From Pyrobaculum ferrireducens (lineage in GTDB: Archaea; Thermoproteota; Thermoprotei; Thermoproteales; Thermoproteaceae), in contig NC_016645.1 in NCBI RefSeq assembly GCF_000234805.1, positions 434,001 to 498,000 of the forward strand: 64,000 nt of DNA, in the 5' to 3' direction. Below the pieces are notes generated by a model. The model saw nothing but the letters and a program-made list of their open reading frames with translations, had not been told where the DNA came from and did no database searches. The translations under genes were made by a program, and so were the position numbers. Of this stretch, positions 13,117 to 25,657 are shown in pieces; positions within the stretch are counted from its first letter, which is position 1; each line of letters starts with the position of its first letter.

Positions 13117-13767
13117 CTAGGCCTGGCTGTGGTGCGCCTTTGGCTCTGTGCCGGGTGGCGAGTTGGCTGAGGTGGAGAAGATCTTTTCGGCGCTGTCGGA
13201 GGCTTTGTACAGAGCGATGACGAAGGCTATGCCTAGGACGGCTGAGGCTATTGGGATGGGGGACAGGACGGCGCCTAGCACGTGTAGCCAAGCCACGACG
13301 CCGAAAGTCCCCACTCCCGTGTCGGCCTCCAGTTGACTCCATACCTTAAACCAGAAGATCCCCAGGGCTACGCCGATGAGCCACGTCAACGCCGCGAGGC
13401 CGCCGGGTATCTCCAGCGTGGCGGCCGGCACCCCCGCCATCACCGTGGCCGCGAGGTGCAGTACGTAGATCGCTAAGCCCAGCCCGGCGGCCAGCGTGAA
13501 AATTATGCCGGCGAGGAGGAGGGAGGAGGCGTAGCCGTACAAGTTGCTTTCGAAATTTTTCTGTAGCTTTGTAAAAGCCTTCCACATCAGATACAGGGGG
13601 TAGGCGGAAGCTGCGGCGACGGCGACAAGCCACGCGGCCAGCGCATACGGCGAGAGGAAGATGACGACAGCTGAGGGCAGGGCGAAGAGGAGGACTAGAA
13701 AGCCTATGACTAACGCCTTCTTTATCAACCAAAAAGCGTCTGCAACCTCCCCATAGTCCATGTACAT
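13117..13767 (-). CDS. Multi-spanning membrane protein of unknown function
   Basis: 216 residues with about six predicted membrane helices (about 14-35, 37-57, 80-105, 112-140, 145-165, 170-192) and a polar C-terminus. The layout resembles the DUF973-type membrane proteins common in Crenarchaeota, but I cannot confirm membership. Two ATGs, 13767 and 13761, are possible; AAATTTATA at about 13785-13793 puts the leaderless start at one of them. It is divergent from the surface protein gene at 13845, with which it shares a 77-bp promoter region. Confidence 0.65.
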   Translation of the reverse strand: MYMDYGEVADAFWLIKKALVIGFLVLLFALPSAVVIFLSPYALAAWLVAVAAASAYPLYLMWKAFTKLQKNFESNLYGYASSLLLAGIIFTLAAGLGLAIYVLHLAATVMAGVPAATLEIPGGLAALTWLIGVALGIFWFKVWSQLEADTGVGTFGVVAWLHVLGAVLSPIPIASAVLGIAFVIALYKASDSAEKIFSTSANSPPGTEPKAHHSQA

Positions 13768-17754: not shown

Positions 17755-18369
17755 CTATTCTATTACCGCCCCATACACCGCGTCTATTCCCAGTTGCGCC
17801 GCCCTCTCCAGCGCCTCTTTGTCTATGTTTACGGCTACTATTATGAGGCGGTCTGCCTTTCTGCCGAGTATCTTCTCCACTGCCTCCGCCTTTTGGGCAA
17901 ACCACTCCACGTCTTCAAGCTCTGCATGCGACTTAACCTCCAAGAGATAAGTCCTCCCGTCGTGGATATGGACGTCAACCTCAATACGGGCGCCGGGCTT
18001 TAGATAACGCCCATCCACATCCGTATAGACAAACTTATCGACGCGGCCAGGCTCAACGCCCCTCTTCTCAAGAGCGTCTCGGTAAATTTCGAGAACTGTG
18101 CGCTCCAAATCCCGGCCCCATCTGCGGCCAAGGGAGCCCATGGCAACCTTAAGCTCAGCGACGGCCTTTGTCAGCTTTTCCAGCCTCTCGCTGTGCTCTG
18201 CTAGAAGCTTCTCCTGCGACTCCAGCCTCTTATTCACCTCCTGGAAGCCCGTCTTCATGTACTCGGCGAGGGTTTTCACGGCGTCGGCCATTTCCCTAAG
18301 CTCATCGGACCTAGCCCTCCTAACAGCCCTCTCCACAACCTCCTCAAGCCTACCCCAGTCGAGACTCAC
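17755..18369 (-). CDS. Coiled-coil protein with PD-(D/E)XK nuclease-like domain (DUF3782 type)
   Basis: 204 residues. Residues 1-80 form a long amphipathic coiled coil (VVERAVRRARSDELREMADA...). Residues 90-204 have the PD-(D/E)XK pattern: helix with Glu (LERTVLEIYRD), ARIEVDVHIHDG with the catalytic Asp, LLEVKSHAE with E-x-K, and a later helix (EWFAQKAEAVEKILG). Proteins of this layout (DUF3782) are common in Pyrobaculum and Sulfolobales and are thought to be DNA-processing or defence-related nucleases, without known role. GTG 18369 follows CTTTTAAATATC (about 18386-18397). Confidence 0.75.
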   Translation of the reverse strand: MSLDWGRLEEVVERAVRRARSDELREMADAVKTLAEYMKTGFQEVNKRLESQEKLLAEHSERLEKLTKAVAELKVAMGSLGRRWGRDLERTVLEIYRDALEKRGVEPGRVDKFVYTDVDGRYLKPGARIEVDVHIHDGRTYLLEVKSHAELEDVEWFAQKAEAVEKILGRKADRLIIVAVNIDKEALERAAQLGIDAVYGAVIE

Positions 18370-18399: not shown

Positions 18400-18906
18400 C
18401 TTTCCGGCTTGTGCGGAGTCGGCTAGATCGCCGTGGCTGTCTCAGTCTGAGAAGAGTGCGCTGTGGCGTATCGCCACGCCTCTTAATCTCCCCTAGCCGC
18501 ATACCGCGGTTTCCCGCCTCTGCGCCGGATTGCCAGCCGCGGCAGGCGGTATGTCTGTGGTGGACGTGTGGGACGGCGTCAAGATCTGTTGAGGAGCGGC
18601 GGCCCGCCTCCGCGGGGTTACGTGTGGATCGCCGCTGGTGTGTTTCTAGATGTGGCGGCTGGCTTCCACGCCGGCGATCTGGCGGGGGTGGAGTAGAAGA
18701 CTCGATGTCGACGGGTTGCGGCTGGCGAGGGTGTGGAGGCCGGCGGCCCTACTCGATGTGGCTGAGTCTAACTAAATCCTGTGTCGCGGCTCGTGGGGAT
18801 TACAAGGGTGCTGGATCGAGGTCGTCCCGCGCCTCAGCTGAGTTATACTCTTAAGTTGTAGTTGGGTAGCCTTATTGTAGATCTGCCACTATGGCTAGTA
18901 TATCTG
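18400..18906. other. Non-coding or decayed DNA
   Basis: About 500 bp between the nuclease-like gene and tRNA-Val. A plus-strand stretch from about 18551 reads MSVVDVWDGVKIC, then after a stop RSGGPPPRGYVWIAAGVFLDVAAGFHAG-type sequence and further broken pieces. This looks like a gene ruined by stops and shifts; I cannot name it. The 147-codon frame at 18411 has an Arg/Cys/Ser-rich composition unlike a real protein. Confidence 0.4.
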
Positions 18907-19036
18907 TGGTGGGCCCGCCGGGATTCGAACCTTGTCCCAAGCCCCCACGCGGGGGCTTGACGGGACCACCCGCGTTCTCCGGCTGTTGCGGGTGTGCCTT
19001 GTAAGGCGGGCATCATAACCGCTAGACTACGGGCCC
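18907..19036 (-). tRNA. tRNA-Val (TAC) with two introns, CCA encoded
   Basis: Acceptor GGGCCCG (19036-19030) pairs with CGGGCCC (18917-18911); A73 and CCA at 18910-18907. Anticodon stem CCCGC/GCGGG closes CTTACAA, anticodon TAC. Intron 1 is about 18974-18998 (25 nt) in the anticodon loop. Intron 2, 18932-18960 (29 nt), splits the T stem after CCG; its removal gives CCGGG-TTCGAAT-CCCGG. Intron 2 is nearly identical to that of tRNA-Pro. Confidence 0.93.
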
Positions 19037-19748: not shown

Positions 19749-20549
19749 CTTGGTTTGGTGTCTGTGGTTTACATGGGTTCCGCCTTGTTGTTTATTTGGC
19801 TTTACTGGGTGGGTTTTATAGGTATGTGTACTTGTTGGTATGGGTTTCGTGGTTGGGGTTGGTCTTAGGAAGAGCTTACTGTGGTGTTGCTGGCCATCGC
19901 GTGGTATGGTGGGGATTTGAGAGAGGTGGCGAAGGTTGTCTTCTGGGGGAGTGTGGTGTTTACAATATTCCCGGAGGGGACTTGGAGTGCCGCGGCATTT
20001 AGCAACTACGTGAGGAGCGGGGTGATGGACTACGTGGTTGCCTCCCCGGCGCGTCTCCACCTCTACCTAACCGCGGCCTCCCTCGCCTCCTCTCTGCTGG
20101 CTCTGCCGGCGTTGGGGATTCAAGTTGCCGTGTATTACCTACTATTCGGCGAGTCGCCTCCGATGGCCCAGCCGGCGTATTTCGCCGCCTCCCTCTTAAT
20201 ATTTCTGGCGTCGTCTTCTTTCATAACTGCGGCTGCTACGATGTTCTTCGCGAGGTTTAGAAACCCCAGCCTCGCGGCTAATGTTGTCCAGTGGGTCGTC
20301 CCCCTGTCGGGGGGCATGATCCCGCCCACAGCCATGCCGCCGGAGGCGGCGCGGTGGTTCGCCTACTCGCCGCTACACTACGTGGTCGCCCCCGTGACTT
20401 ACTCAGCCACGGGGCGCTGGTTGCTGGACCCGGTCTTCACCCTGGCGGCGGGGCTCCTCGTGGCCGCGGGGCTTGGCCTGCGGTCTCTATACGCGGCGGA
20501 GTCGGCGTACGAGAGGTTTAGGAGGCTGGGTAAGTGGGCGGCGGAGTAG
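19749..20549 (+). pseudogene. ABC-2 type transporter permease, 5' end broken
   Basis: The C-terminal 220 residues (in frame from 19881) are a good ABC-2 permease half: NYVRSGVMDYVVASPARLHLYLTAASLAS is the conserved cytosolic helix before transmembrane helix 3, followed by four more helices. The N-terminal part is broken: the same frame reads MGSALLFIWLYWVGFIG from ATG 19773 but hits TAG at 19866, while the stretch between about 19823 and 19880 reads as membrane helix in another frame (YVYLLVWVSWLGLVLG). Two compensating shifts would explain this. No ATPase gene is adjacent. A short functional product from GTG 19881 is possible but unlikely. Confidence 0.6.
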
Positions 20550-20946: not shown

Positions 20947-21006
20947 GTTTGGTAGGTTTGGTAGCTTTATAAAAATTTTAGGCTTGGGGAAAAAGGGGGG
21001 TTGGGT

Positions 21007-24000
21007 TTAGGATACTATTATGTTTATTGTGTGGTATTTCGTCACGGATCCGCTTGTAGCCTTAATCACCACCGTGTATATGCCGGGGACTGCGGTCGCC
21101 GGGATGTTTATGGTCACGGCCGCGGAGAAGTCGGGTATGCCGCTACTCGGCGAAATGTTGACGGTCCATCCGGCGGGCGCCGACTGTACGCTTAAGTAGA
21201 CCCGTCTAGGGGTGCCGGTTACAACTCCGATGTACAGCTTGGCGTCGACGGCCCCTCCCGGCTTGCCAGTTAGGTTGCCGGGCGGCTCTCTCTTAATTAC
21301 GAAATCCCACTGACTTGCCTGGATCTTAAGTAATATTTCGGCGCACGTCTTGTTGGGCTTTACGCCCGGCCGATCGCCGACTAACAACCTGCCTGGCAGT
21401 AGGTAGGTGCCGGGTCCAGCGGCTTGCATCGCAAAGTCAAGGATTCTGACCGGCGGCACAGGTGTGGGCACCACGGCGGCCGGTGGCGTTACATAGAGGC
21501 CGGTTGGCGGGTCCCACATCCACATGGCGGTGGGGTAGGTTATTACGCCGCCTATGTACAGCCTCAGGAGGTACGGGGCGCCGGGGTCCACCACTATTGA
21601 GTATGTGTTGCCTACCACGTCGACTACTGTGGCGTTGGTTTCCAGCTTGATTTCCGGTTTGCATATCATGGACGTGGCGTTGCGCCTTATGGCGGCAACG
21701 CAACGGGGGCCATTGGGGGTGAATTCCGACTCGTATTTGAACTCTACGGAGGTGGTGCCTGACGTCGGTCTTAGGTAGAAGGTGAACTGGCCGTTAAGCG
21801 GTCTGGCCGGCGACGGCGGCTGTATATCGAAGTACGCGGTGGTTCCCATGGTTCCTGGGGTCACCGTCACAATGGGGATCGTGGTGTAGGGGCCTGGGGT
21901 TACCGTGCCGGAGTTGACCGACATGCTGAGTCTCATGTTTGTGTAGGCCCATGGAACTGCCAGGAAGACTACGAATTCGTAGACTTTGCCGGGCTCCATG
22001 TAGTAGACGCCGCCTATTTCGGTGGCGTTGGTTCTAATGCTGATTCTGGGCTGGCACGGGGGTTTGCCTACCTCCACGACGAGGGACTGGTTCAAGCCGC
22101 ACCTCTGCTGGCCTAGTGGCAGTAGCTGTATGTTCAGCGGGGAGCTGGAGCCCTGCGGCGCCGACGGCTGAACTTGGAAGACGTATCTCAGATCCACGGG
22201 TAGCGCCGGGACGGTGAAGTCTCTGTAGTCGGTGGTGGGATCTATCCAGTTGACGTAGCCGCTGAGCGGCGGGCCGAAGGCTAGCCGCAGTCTGTATAGC
22301 CCGGCGGGTAGCGATCCGCCGACTCTAACTATCACCTCGTAGAGGCCGCCTGGCAATACTTGGTATCTCCCCCCGCCGAGATCTGTCATGTTTGTCTTGA
22401 TTGCTATGCTGGGTTTGCACGCCGCCTCTTCTCTCGGCTTTATGGTGGCGTTGACGGTGGTGCGGGCGCCGCAGTACTCAAAGGGTGCCTCGGAGTGGAC
22501 TGTGAATATGAAGTTGGCTGTGCCGCTGGCCGTCGCCGTCACTCCGAAGTAGTAAATCCCGTCGCTGGTTATTCGGGGGGCACCTGGCCACAGCGGCGTG
22601 ATTGTCGCCGTGCCGGGCGGCGCCACTGAGGCCTGAAGCCGTGCTGGGTACGGCGCGCCGGAGACCGCCACCGCTATGACGTAGTTGCGCCCTGCCTCCA
22701 GCACCAGCGGCGTCTTGTTCAGCACCTCTATTTTCCACACGCATCTAGACACGTTTATGTACGTCACCGCCCTGGCGACGCACTGATAGCCCTGCCCAGA
22801 CGCCGAGAGGCCGTACACCACGCTGTAAACACCCGGCGCAGTGCTCTGCGGTATATTTATGCCAACATTTACCACGAAGTCGGTGGTGCCGGTGTGCGGC
22901 GATGCTGGAAATGCCAGCGATAGAGGACTCTGCGGGGCGATTGTGAGTTGTGCGTTTAGGCCGTCGGGGGTGGTGTCGACGCCCACGTCGTATGTGAGCA
23001 ATAAGGAGCCGGGGCCTCCGTGTGTCCAGACGAGTATGCTGGTGGGCGCGTTGATTCTGGCCTCGCACAGCTTGGCGGGGGGCGGCTTAATTATAATCGG
23101 CAACGAGATCGATCTGTTGCAGGGCGGGAGTTGCGTACCTGGACTGTACATAGTGGCTCTGATCTCCAAGTTGGCGGATCCAGAGGCTCTCGCGGTGACT
23201 AGGAAGCTGACCTCGGCCTCGAAGGCGCCCGTCGGCAGTGGTCCGAAGCTGAAGTAGTCTGACCCTACGTTGGCGGCGACGCCGCTAGGCGGGTTAATCA
23301 GCGTGTAGCTGACAGCTCTTATGTCGTACATAGCCGTGCTCACTCCTCTTACCTCTAACATCCCGTAGGCGATGGGGATGTAGATTCTGTATATGAATAG
23401 ATAGCTTTTGCCCTCCTCCAGCACGTATTCGCCGCCGCTCTGGGTGGCGTTTGTCTTCACCAGCTTGATGACGATTTCACATGTCCTATTGACGACGCGG
23501 AACACAGGCCCCTCCGTCTTTACGACGCAATCCTTTCCGACCGGCGTAGTGCTCCACCCCTCTAGCAATACGCTGAAGTAGTGGCCCGGCGGAGCCGCTG
23601 GCGAAACCACCAGCTCAAACCTGGCTATCTGGGGCGGGGGGGGCGTGGCCACTGTCTTTGGGTTGGGCGGCACTACGGTCACGTATGTGTTGGGATTGGG
23701 GGTTAGTTGCACGAAGTAGCTGGCGTAGGGGGGATTGGGTATGTAGCCGGCAACCTCGACGTCTATGTAGTAGGCGTGTCCCGGCTCTACTTGGTACTGG
23801 CCTGGGCCCACCGCCGTGGCGTTCGTGCCTATGAAGCGCAGGGCTGGCTCGCACTTCTTGGGTGATGGTCTAACTGTGAAGTTTAACCCCTTCACTGTGC
23901 AGGGCTCTATACATGCGCTACCTACATGAGCCAATGTTGTCAGTGTGAAGGCTATGGCGCCGGGGCCGCTTGCGGTGAATTCGAAGTGGTAAGGTCCGTG

Positions 24001-24471
24001 CGCACCTGCTACTCCGGGTACTATGTAGGGAGTGGTGGGGGTGTTTTTAACCACGGCGCCTGTCGTGACGGCGTCTAGTGCGGCGTCGCATCCATCGGCG
24101 GTTCTTACCACCTGTACGTCTATGTAGAAGGGGCCTGTGGCGTATACCGTTCCGCCGGAAATGGTGGCGTTTGTGCCCACTATGTTGATGAATACGAAGC
24201 ATTTTCTGCCGTCTGTCTGGTTTATGGGTAGCGGCTGTATGGAGGTTTGGGTGACTGTGATCGTGGTGGTTGTGGTTTCTGGCGGCGGGCGTGTTGTTAC
24301 TGTAACTGTCTGGGTGGATGTGATTACTTCTTTTGTGGTTATTGTGATGGTGTTTGAGGGGTTTCCTATTACAACTATCATCACAGCTCCTGCGATTATG
24401 GCTGCTATTATGCCCAGAATTGCAGCGTATGACACGGGGGACATCGCCTTTGTTTTTAGGTTTGGTTTCAT
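21007..24471 (-). CDS. Giant surface repeat protein (1154 aa)
   Basis: An N-terminal basic stretch and one membrane helix (about 13-36, preceded by KAMSPVS, which recalls archaeal pilin-type N-termini) are followed by a Thr-rich linker (40-80) and about eight extracellular modules of 100-130 residues. Each begins with a Cys, then a strand and (I/T)-x-T-N-A-T/S-x-x-GG-x-Y-x-(V/L)-x-PG-x-Y (for example at about 91, 205 and 860). The last domain (about 1041-1154) is Ig-like, with PGIYTVVIKATSG. Many NxT/S sequons suggest N-glycosylation. It is probably an S-layer or stalk protein anchored by its N-terminus. ATG 24471 is 25 nt from CTTTTAAAACC. It is divergent from the membrane-bound regulator at 24569. 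Confidence 0.75.
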   Translation of the reverse strand: MKPNLKTKAMSPVSYAAILGIIAAIIAGAVMIVVIGNPSNTITITTKEVITSTQTVTVTTRPPPETTTTTITVTQTSIQPLPINQTDGRKCFVFINIVGTNATISGGTVYATGPFYIDVQVVRTADGCDAALDAVTTGAVVKNTPTTPYIVPGVAGAHGPYHFEFTASGPGAIAFTLTTLAHVGSACIEPCTVKGLNFTVRPSPKKCEPALRFIGTNATAVGPGQYQVEPGHAYYIDVEVAGYIPNPPYASYFVQLTPNPNTYVTVVPPNPKTVATPPPPQIARFELVVSPAAPPGHYFSVLLEGWSTTPVGKDCVVKTEGPVFRVVNRTCEIVIKLVKTNATQSGGEYVLEEGKSYLFIYRIYIPIAYGMLEVRGVSTAMYDIRAVSYTLINPPSGVAANVGSDYFSFGPLPTGAFEAEVSFLVTARASGSANLEIRATMYSPGTQLPPCNRSISLPIIIKPPPAKLCEARINAPTSILVWTHGGPGSLLLTYDVGVDTTPDGLNAQLTIAPQSPLSLAFPASPHTGTTDFVVNVGINIPQSTAPGVYSVVYGLSASGQGYQCVARAVTYINVSRCVWKIEVLNKTPLVLEAGRNYVIAVAVSGAPYPARLQASVAPPGTATITPLWPGAPRITSDGIYYFGVTATASGTANFIFTVHSEAPFEYCGARTTVNATIKPREEAACKPSIAIKTNMTDLGGGRYQVLPGGLYEVIVRVGGSLPAGLYRLRLAFGPPLSGYVNWIDPTTDYRDFTVPALPVDLRYVFQVQPSAPQGSSSPLNIQLLPLGQQRCGLNQSLVVEVGKPPCQPRISIRTNATEIGGVYYMEPGKVYEFVVFLAVPWAYTNMRLSMSVNSGTVTPGPYTTIPIVTVTPGTMGTTAYFDIQPPSPARPLNGQFTFYLRPTSGTTSVEFKYESEFTPNGPRCVAAIRRNATSMICKPEIKLETNATVVDVVGNTYSIVVDPGAPYLLRLYIGGVITYPTAMWMWDPPTGLYVTPPAAVVPTPVPPVRILDFAMQAAGPGTYLLPGRLLVGDRPGVKPNKTCAEILLKIQASQWDFVIKREPPGNLTGKPGGAVDAKLYIGVVTGTPRRVYLSVQSAPAGWTVNISPSSGIPDFSAAVTINIPATAVPGIYTVVIKATSGSVTKYHTINIIVS

Positions 24472-24568
24472 GTACGCCCTGTGTGCGGGTTTTAAAAGAG
24501 GTTTTAGTTCAACTTATGTAAAGCGGTGCCTCGTGTGCATTCTTATATATTGATACGCATCTATCTCT

Positions 24569-25171
24569 ATGTATCTACCGAGTGGATACCACGAGGTCTT
24601 TATTGGATACTGGGCCCCGGGCTTTGTCTATAAGGTGGTCATCTGGGTCAATGGCTCGGCAGATGTTGAAGTGTTTGCTAGAGGGTTTTCAATTTACGCC
24701 GGTGTGTCGGCCCCTGCTCCTGTGGAGATTTCTTTTAGTGTTATGTATTTTCCACTGGTGCCTCTTGCGGTGCTTATATACCTGCTCCTAAGCAGAGAGA
24801 AAGTGGCTGAGAAGCTGGCGGCGGCGCTGGCTCCGCTTTATACTAGATTTATAAGGCCTGCTGAAGTCTTAACTAATGCCAAGAGGCGCTCTATATATGA
24901 CTACATTAGAGAGCGCGGCTACTCGTGGCCTAGAGAGCTGGAGAAGATCTTTAACATGGCGTACGGGGAGGTCTGCTGGCACCTCTCACTGCTGGAGAGA
25001 GCGGGTCTTATCTACAACTTCTATGCCCTCCGCAGGAGGTTTTACGTGGATCGCCAGCTCCCGCTGGAGGACGCCGTTAATAAAATCTTTCGTGATCAGG
25101 CAGGCCGCCCGCCTACGGAGGAAGAGGTTTTACAGATACGTGAAAGTCTTAGATTTCTACTGCCTTTTTAA
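24569..25171 (+). CDS. Membrane-anchored winged-helix transcription regulator
   Basis: 200 residues. Residues 1-54 form a small, aromatic-rich extracellular segment. A single membrane helix (about 56-76, FSVMYFPLVPLAVLIYLLL) follows, then a cytosolic linker and an ArsR/MarR-like winged helix (about 105-165: NAKRRSIYDYIRERGYSWPRELEKIF...VCWHLSLLERAGLI), followed by a C-terminal helix. This is the plan of a one-component receptor sensing an outside or membrane signal. CTTATATATT (24542-24551) gives ATG 24569 as the leaderless start. The gene is divergent from the giant surface protein and separated by 97 bp, so it could control that gene. Its 3' end overlaps nadM by 15 bp. Confidence 0.78.
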   Translation: MYLPSGYHEVFIGYWAPGFVYKVVIWVNGSADVEVFARGFSIYAGVSAPAPVEISFSVMYFPLVPLAVLIYLLLSREKVAEKLAAALAPLYTRFIRPAEVLTNAKRRSIYDYIRERGYSWPRELEKIFNMAYGEVCWHLSLLERAGLIYNFYALRRRFYVDRQLPLEDAVNKIFRDQAGRPPTEEEVLQIRESLRFLLPF

Positions 25172-25657
25172 AAGCGCGGCGACCCGCTGGGGGCCGCCGA
25201 TCTCTTTGAGGTAGTCGGCCACCGCTGGGGGCACCATCTCGGCCCACCTGGGGTTGCCCTCGGCCATCAGCTGGCGTATGGCGGTGGCTGAGTAGTCGCC
25301 GTAGTGTGGGTGGGGCCTCACCTCGACGCCCCAGTAGGCGAGGGCGGCGGCTACCCACGAGTTGTTTGAATATACTACGTGGTGCTGGGGGCACCAGTGG
25401 CGCAGGTGGGAGCCCCAGTGGCTGGAGGGGCCGTTGGTGTCTGGCACTGTGCAGTACAGCAGGCGGCAGTTGGCGCCGAAGTGCCTCCGGAACATCTCAA
25501 GCCGCTCCCCCGGGGTGAAGGGGTTGTCGGGGGTGAGGGCCTTGTCGGCGGAGCCTATGGCCACCACCACCTCGTCGTAGTGCGTGAGGAGCCACTCCAC
25601 CACCTTTACGTGTCCCCAGTGGAGAGGCTGGAAACGCCCCACGTAGAGGGCCCTCAT
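25157..25657 (-). CDS. nadM: Nicotinamide-nucleotide adenylyltransferase
   Basis: 166 residues, matching archaeal NMN adenylyltransferase, which makes NAD from NMN and ATP. The nucleotidyltransferase loop GRFQPLHWGH is at residues 7-16, and YSATAIRQ near 125-132 is the conserved C-terminal ISSTxIR-type motif. The family is hexameric and cytosolic. ATG 25657 lies 25 nt from the shared TTTAAAAAA element at 25675-25684, which also points the other way to a C/D box sRNA. Confidence 0.95.
   Translation of the reverse strand: MRALYVGRFQPLHWGHVKVVEWLLTHYDEVVVAIGSADKALTPDNPFTPGERLEMFRRHFGANCRLLYCTVPDTNGPSSHWGSHLRHWCPQHHVVYSNNSWVAAALAYWGVEVRPHPHYGDYSATAIRQLMAEGNPRWAEMVPPAVADYLKEIGGPQRVAALLKRQ

Follow-up and report, generated by a model that had tools for sequence, protein, structure and literature searches.

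The window analysed here is a 64,000-nucleotide stretch of Pyrobaculum ferrireducens (contig NC_016645.1, positions 434,001 to 498,000), and our subject is a pair of divergent genes within it, one encoding a membrane-anchored winged-helix regulator and the other a giant surface protein. Both open reading frames (ORFs) lie where the preliminary description had placed them, separated by a gap of 97 bp (24472-24568). The features of the locus are listed below.

20979-25178, no strand: two-gene cassette, present in the window and absent from the sister genome G003 (flank comparison; right edge uncertain by about 20 bp)
21007-24471, minus strand: giant surface protein, 1154 residues (ORF; full-length orthologue, 69% identical, in P. 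oguniense only)
21010-21315, minus strand: C-terminal NEW3-like (ninth) domain of the giant (weak Pfam match; the region that matches proteins outside the genus)
21316-24219, minus strand: eight immunoglobulin (Ig)-like modules of the giant, residues 85-1052, one spanning Cys pair per module (Cys pattern, model and fold matches)
24223-24354, minus strand: Thr-rich linker of the giant, residues 40-83 (sequence)
24373-24444, minus strand: hydrophobic N-terminal segment of the giant, residues 10-33, after the putative pilin-like processing site KTKA/MSPV (pattern scan)
24490-24498, minus strand: TATA-like box CTTTTAAAA of the giant gene (putative, from sequence)
24502-24523, minus strand: candidate operator, a conserved block between the genes that begins 52 bp upstream of the giant ATG
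24543-24551, plus strand: TATA-like box TTATATATT of the regulator gene (putative, from sequence)
24569-25171, plus strand: membrane-anchored winged-helix regulator, 200 residues (ORF; topology, AlphaFold and VIA-align; P. oguniense orthologue 65% identical)
24569-24733, plus strand: N-tail of the regulator, residues 1-55, predicted external, five predicted strands, without a signal peptide (hydropathy, AlphaFold, upstream stop)
24734-24790, plus strand: membrane helix of the regulator, residues 56-74 (hydropathy)
24857-25051, plus strand: ArsR-like winged helix of the regulator, residues 97-161 (AlphaFold, VIA-align, comparison with NCBIfam NF033788)

The two genes behave as a unit. In the sister genome (G003, about 95% identical), the flanks are joined, with window positions 20978 and 25179 mapping about 31 bp apart, and the absent segment consists of the giant and regulator genes only, in agreement with the earlier remark that nothing else shares this region. 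The neighbours are a CTP_transf_like gene, which we take to be NMNAT and which overlaps the regulator gene tail to tail by 15 bp, and a Zn_ribbon_RPAB4-like ORF (E = 0.00097, under the cut-off), presumably rpoP. From the NMNAT-like stop to the rpoP-like CMRCG codon, the distance is 30-69 bp in all seven genomes inspected at this site (G003, G002, G009, G010, Pyrobaculum sp. WP30 (G008), G004 and G006), compared with about 4.2 kb in the window; in the flank comparison, G005 and G001 also have the same flanks close together, and those of G007 are rearranged. Both genes are intact in two of 11 genus genomes and decayed in one (G006, presumably P. aerophilum), and eight have neither, disregarding short matches to other winged-helix proteins and with one of the eight (G007) being 74% complete; no genome has a single gene. 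P. oguniense TE7 (G002) has an empty site here and carries the pair elsewhere, beside a CitMHS-type transporter and within a few kb of HEPN, nucleotidyltransferase and PIN genes. G006 retains remnants of both genes beside a transporter 80% identical to that of P. oguniense. In G006, a stretch looks to have been deleted that runs from roughly codon 1111 of the giant, through the intergenic region, to codon 26 or so of the regulator, and the regulator remnant has a frameshift in its membrane part. The pair is thus found at two unrelated loci, together each time, and has decayed jointly in one species. Since the other inspected genomes carry the short junction, insertion in the lineage of the window is the simplest direction. 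No target duplication or transposase is found at the cassette ends, and the idea that the cassette supplied the last codons of the NMNAT-like gene was set aside, as both C-termini are too alike to say so.

The intergenic region contains a 22-bp block, CTTTACATANNTTGAACTAAAA, which is identical in 20 of 22 positions between the window and P. oguniense, whereas none of 300 shuffles exceeded 16 of 22. In both species, the block starts exactly 52 bp upstream of the giant ATG, whereas it lies 8 bp nearer to the regulator start in P. oguniense than in the window. Because the distance to the giant is fixed while the distance to the regulator varies, the block is tied to the promoter of the giant. With up to three mismatches allowed, the 11 genus genomes contain one site in the window genome and one in P. 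oguniense, both at this promoter, and none in the other nine; a reversed control of the pattern gave one site in G009 and one in G002. Between the two species, synonymous differences (ps) are very high and non-synonymous differences much lower in both the regulator (0.87 and 0.25) and the giant (0.67 and 0.21), so that chance is rejected and both genes are under coding constraint. Given these synonymous differences, the similarity of the block exceeds that of unconstrained DNA. Chance adjacency of the two genes is ruled out by the conservation of the block, its unique sites and the absence of the segment in G003.

We compared the regulator with known folds. Hydropathy shows a single membrane segment (residues 56-74), with no Lys or Arg in the preceding 15 residues and three in the following 15. 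In the P. oguniense orthologue, a second stretch (residues 12-30) is barely over the hydropathy threshold (1.64 against 1.6), so the topology of the N-tail is less than certain. A longer N-terminus with a signal peptide is excluded by an in-frame stop immediately upstream of the start. The AlphaFold model, built from a 6-row alignment, has a mean predicted local distance difference test score (pLDDT) of 74, which falls below 50 in the membrane part and is 80-95 from residue 101 onward; it shows five strands at residues 6-60, then a helix and then a winged helix at about 97-161. The VIA-align matches, which cover residues 93-172 only, superpose residues 93-166 on CzrA, CadC and P. furiosus 2p4w (a heat-shock regulator) with a Z score of 9.8 and a root-mean-square deviation (rmsd) of about 3 over 72-73 residues, identifying a winged helix of the ArsR/SmtB type. 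Profile matches are weaker: NF033788 gives E = 2.1e-5 and 24.2 bits, under its cut-off of 55, two Pfam matches are also under cut-off (E = 0.07 and 0.16), and no Pfam or NCBIfam model reaches its cut-off. From its DNA-binding function and the charge bias, we infer that the winged helix is cytosolic. The order proposed earlier, an external segment, one membrane helix and a DNA-binding domain, therefore stands, with a 55-residue N-tail, a helix at 56-74 and an ArsR-like winged helix.

The giant had been described as carrying eight modules, and we find eight disulfide-paired modules running from Cys to Cys plus a ninth, C-terminal domain. All 18 cysteines are kept in the P. oguniense orthologue, and the protein has 18 N-glycosylation sequons against 6.6 expected in shuffles, a number reached in none of 2000 shuffles. 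A model built from 16 modules of the window and P. oguniense giants is an Ig/fibronectin-like sandwich with a pLDDT of 90. It resembles domains of complement and CD109, the biofilm protein RbmA (Z 9.5) and, with a Z score of 9.9 and an rmsd of 2.5 over 105 residues, an adhesin CLIPPER domain (9ifr); this sandwich is a common fold. A sequence search of solved structures with the modules gave a best E value of only 0.19, to an antibody-like protein, and the modules do not match the TasA/AbpA-like pilin profile (hhalign probability 0.28%). The ninth domain weakly resembles NPCBM_assoc/NEW3 (18.0 bits, cut-off 24.4). Of 398 genomes of the phylum, 32 match the giant. The match spans the whole protein only in P. 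oguniense and the window genome, is the remnant in G006, and in the 29 others is confined to residues 1019-1153. A 276-residue Thr-rich ORF in G056 weakly matches the N-terminal 98 residues (E = 4.9e-4). Neither the giant nor the regulator family has a pattern match in IMG/VR, which leaves a viral origin without support.

The N-terminus of the giant reads KTKA/MSPVSYAAILG... in the window and KTKG/MNPVSYATMMG... in P. oguniense. Class III signals have a [KR][GA] site followed by a long hydrophobic stretch, and the giant has both; FlaFind-like patterns describe such processing motifs more strictly. In a scan of 162 ORFs in eight loci, with a pattern ([KR][GA]xxP plus hydrophobic stretch) that was written after viewing the matched sequences, only three ORFs match, namely both giants and a small putative pilin beside a T2SSE ATPase and a T2SSF protein. 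The stricter FlaFind-like pattern matches only the window giant and an unrelated ORF (13117-13767); the putative pilin does not match it. The putative pilin itself (L106) reaches Pilin_N (PF07790) at E = 0.1, under the cut-off, and one candidate prepilin peptidase in the genome matches Peptidase_A24 at E = 2.3e-5 and 25.9 bits (23.0 bits in another search), just under the cut-off of 26.5. The giant is probably exported and anchored, or assembled, via this type IV pilin-like N-terminus, with a putative cleavage at the site above.

To place the regulator in a family, we searched 81 genomes of the class with a profile and obtained 28 matches with E < 1e-30, including the three linked to the giant; two of the 28 are partial, both in G006. 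The match of the window regulator to this profile is partly by construction, its sequence being included in alignment A1. Against the preliminary description would count regulator homologues that never stand beside such surface proteins. This is not the case, as 19 of the 28 lie in clusters with a gene for an AbpA-like (TasA-like) pilin and three adjoin the giant or its remnant, but six have neither neighbour. The names AbpA, AbpB and AbpC are those that we presume for these clusters. The abpA profile comprises 11 sequences from ten of the regulator-relative loci, and in the window genome, the AbpA-like protein has a match to PDB 7ueg ('Pilin') with E = 1e-29. There is no abpA match in the window or L036, where the partner is the giant. 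In a single-sequence search, the window regulator matches six members of the Thermofilum group (G046-G059, presumably so named apart from Thermofilum sp. NZ13) at E = 1.3e-8 to 7.9e-15 within residues 63-197, so that homology to the abp-cluster winged helix-turn-helix (wHTH) proteins extends across the membrane helix and the winged helix. In the tree, the giant-linked clade groups with Thermofilum-group sequences (97/98).

Most examined Pyrobaculum abpA and regulator genes share an operator-like promoter element, CRCAACGTTRAATATWWA, abutting the TATA box. Across the 11 genomes, its pattern has 45 sites at up to two mismatches compared with 12 for the reversed control, and 16 sites without mismatch. 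Each of the 16 precedes the start codon of an abpA or regulator gene by 39-41 bp, and none is found elsewhere, counting to the best-fitting start codon where several are possible and with the distance in L177 worked out by hand. They are distributed over L046, L047, L048, L049, L088, L089, L090, L092 and L177. Thirteen are the promoters used to write the pattern, and the three others, about 40 bp upstream, belong to two abpA copies of G009 and the regulator of G007. The regulator of G005 has a site with one mismatch, and the two such sites of G001 are away from its abp cluster; in G004, the profile search gave no full-length regulator and there is no site with fewer than two mismatches. The element likely marks a dedicated bundling-pilus regulon. 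An extra abpA copy of G009 (L177:900-1487), far from the abp cluster, retains the cluster promoter element. The GTTGAA part of the element resembles the B recognition element (BRE) and is also present in the 22-bp block.

The regulator resembles transmembrane transcription regulators (TTRs), which likewise combine a DNA-binding domain and a membrane helix in one protein, and of which, in the parts of the source consulted, the single-pass form is the commonest at about 56% (Demey et al. 2023, PMC10269533). Both predicted elements are present in the regulator, which differs in its outside N-tail, its C-terminal winged helix and its membership in a movable two-gene unit. ArnR and ArnR1 of Sulfolobus acidocaldarius are also membrane-bound archaeal helix-turn-helix (HTH) regulators at surface-filament promoters; as far as the consulted text goes, ArnR binds the flaB, aapF and upsX promoters, and the transcripts drop without ArnR in starved cells (PMC6396743). 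In ArnR, however, the HTH is N-terminal and is followed by a HAMP-like part and two membrane helices at the C-terminus (same source); the regulator, with the reverse order and a single helix, is therefore not an ArnR. In the abp clusters of Pyrobaculum, related genera and the Thermofilum group, the membrane wHTH proteins share the winged helix, the preceding membrane helix and the surface-filament neighbours, but mostly have an N-terminal hydrophobic segment, a longer outer part, AbpA as partner and a different promoter element. As for the giant, a pilin-type N-terminus is also joined to large added modules in the modular type IV pilins, for example Streptococcus sanguinis PilB, according to the part consulted (PMC8179133); the giant is far larger, archaeal and without a recognised pilin globular domain, and is at most a putative pilus component. 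Among titles and abstract openings, we found no published description of the regulator or the promoter element (a 2022 PNAS paper on P. calidifontis bundling pili was outside this scope), and the literature surveyed says little about the control of surface filaments in Thermoproteales.

Taken together, the evidence makes it probable that the pair is a self-contained, movable surface-fibre module, in which the giant is accompanied by its own membrane-bound regulator acting on the shared intergenic region. The giant would leave the cell and become anchored, or assembled, through its pilin-like N-terminus, and the regulator would place its small beta domain outside, cross the membrane with one helix and keep its ArsR-like winged helix in the cytosol. 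The winged helix would bind the 22-bp block and set transcription of the giant, and probably its own too. A TTR-type one-component switch on the adjacent divergent promoter is the most likely arrangement, and the earlier proposal, in which a one-component receptor in the membrane keeps its DNA-binding domain inside and is linked to the giant, is supported by the occurrence of the pair at two loci, the promoter-locked block and the relatives in pilus clusters. Whether such a switch would activate or repress is a guess that leans slightly to activation, because ArnR is an activator and the likely TATA box lies downstream of the block. As external signal, cell contact or the fibre itself (its state or abundance) is likely, and either is a natural candidate since the sensor would sit close to the anchor of the fibre. 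We consider it rather unlikely that the outer beta domain directly senses the partner fibre protein at the membrane (the unassembled or anchored giant here, AbpA subunits in the abp-cluster relatives) and that fibre, thermostat and operator move between genomes or loci as a cassette; if true, each surface fibre of these archaea would carry its own assembly-state thermostat.

Other explanations of the pair were weighed against the same data. The regulator may travel with the giant as island cargo only, with its true targets elsewhere. The accessory distribution of the pair suits this idea, as do the HEPN, nucleotidyltransferase and PIN genes near the P. oguniense locus, which recall genomic islands, and the G+C content at third codon positions of the regulator gene (0.552), the lowest among listed window ORFs of at least 150 residues (mean of the others 0.724, standard deviation 0.055). 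However, the block is distance-locked to the giant start without a second site in either genome at up to three mismatches, and the missing segment holds just these two genes, so we regard cargo as unlikely. Signalling could instead proceed by cutting, where the external domain is lost or cleaved and the winged helix, released into the cytosol, works as a soluble factor. The decayed copy in G006 retains an open frame of 130 codons from the membrane segment through the winged helix, with few non-synonymous differences from the window (pn 0.20, ps 0.84), although this remnant may be merely a recent pseudogene; cutting seems distinctly unlikely. That the block is bound by another factor, the regulator controlling its own gene only or nothing, agrees with the variable distance between block and regulator, since a block fixed to the giant need not serve the regulator gene. 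Such a general factor is hard to reconcile with a block that occurs only where the regulator is intact (two of 11 genomes), and we think this version improbable.

The preliminary description suggested a possible envelope-sensing loop in which the regulator adjusts the synthesis of a surface layer or stalk, and the size of the giant, its N-terminal anchor, many sequons and Ig-like modules are features that would fit. This proposal does not hold up well: the giant is absent from G003 and seven further genus genomes and has a pilin-like N-terminus, which makes such adjustment highly improbable. A surface-layer protein, which covers the cell as a lattice, would be expected to be conserved between close relatives; such a role of the giant is unlikely because the pair is missing from a sister about 95% identical. 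For these reasons, namely an insert missing from the sister and a pilin-like N-terminus, an accessory fibre or adhesin suits the giant better, its fibre function being our inference.

Several observations weigh against the module of giant and dedicated regulator. Only two intact copies of the pair exist among the sampled genomes. The P. oguniense giant fails the stricter FlaFind-like pattern, and Pilin_N (PF07790) does not match the giant. The outer domain of the regulator has no profile similarity to AbpA or the modules of the giant, and this comparison likewise gives no support to the idea of a decoy subunit, in which the outer domain would share their profile. Beyond the membrane region and winged helix, the regulator is only weakly similar to those of the abp clusters, with single-sequence matches beginning at residue 49 or later, and the window genome's own abp regulator matches only at E = 3.2e-4 over residues 80-152. 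The stem of the giant-linked clade is extremely long (3.98 changes per column), so its placement is unsafe and may reflect an artefactual join. Of the six relatives with neither neighbour, four share an operon with genes for a MinD-like protein and an AAA ATPase, and two are in G049 and in G014, the latter at a contig end with one side hidden. Among the promoters examined, the element is missing from those of abpA in G001 and G005 and of the regulator in G010 (presumably P. calidifontis). A palindromic operator was rejected, the palindrome in the block being imperfect, not clear in both species and not conserved; the shared GTTGAA is no proof of related operators, and a relation is not demonstrable.

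What is new is that the two genes form a movable unit, that the block is distance-locked and that the regulator family is linked to TasA-like pili. The locus provides a concrete pair of regulator and surface protein with a mapped candidate operator, and shows that a surface protein and its probable regulator can be housed together, as a self-contained unit, at different loci in archaea. In the wider family, a specific promoter element ties membrane-bound wHTH proteins to bundling pili of the TasA-like kind, a hint of a general mode of control for surface fibres in these cells.

A third paralogous membrane wHTH gene is found at L093:5888-6562, L094:5767-6438, L095:5749-6420 and in L096, and is split into two frames in G006. 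Its operon, by Pfam in the L094 copy, encodes two ATPases, one AAA_16-like and one MinD-like, as well as two small proteins and a small wHTH-like protein, with the membrane wHTH last. We rejected an assignment of this group to type IV pilus subclade 4G (as far as it is described in the part consulted of PMC4858521), since the stretches fetched contain no TadC, pilin or secretion ATPase in a Pfam run on the G000 copy only. Shorter membrane-wHTH proteins occur in two other genomes of the same taxonomic family (L051:5237-5770 and L025), one of them beside a multi-membrane protein that looks archaeosortase-like by eye and has no Pfam match. Near the cassette, a gene at 19881-20549 for an ABC-2 permease is seemingly shortened, as G003 carries an additional 1.7 kb or so of DNA at about window position 19877. 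A DUF3782/PD-(D/E)XK gene at 17755-18369 has three further copies in the window genome with 81-87% identical DNA, and for a repeat of about 66 bp at 18906-18973, the copies listed include eleven more in the window genome and nine in G003, with some also in other Pyrobaculum genomes.

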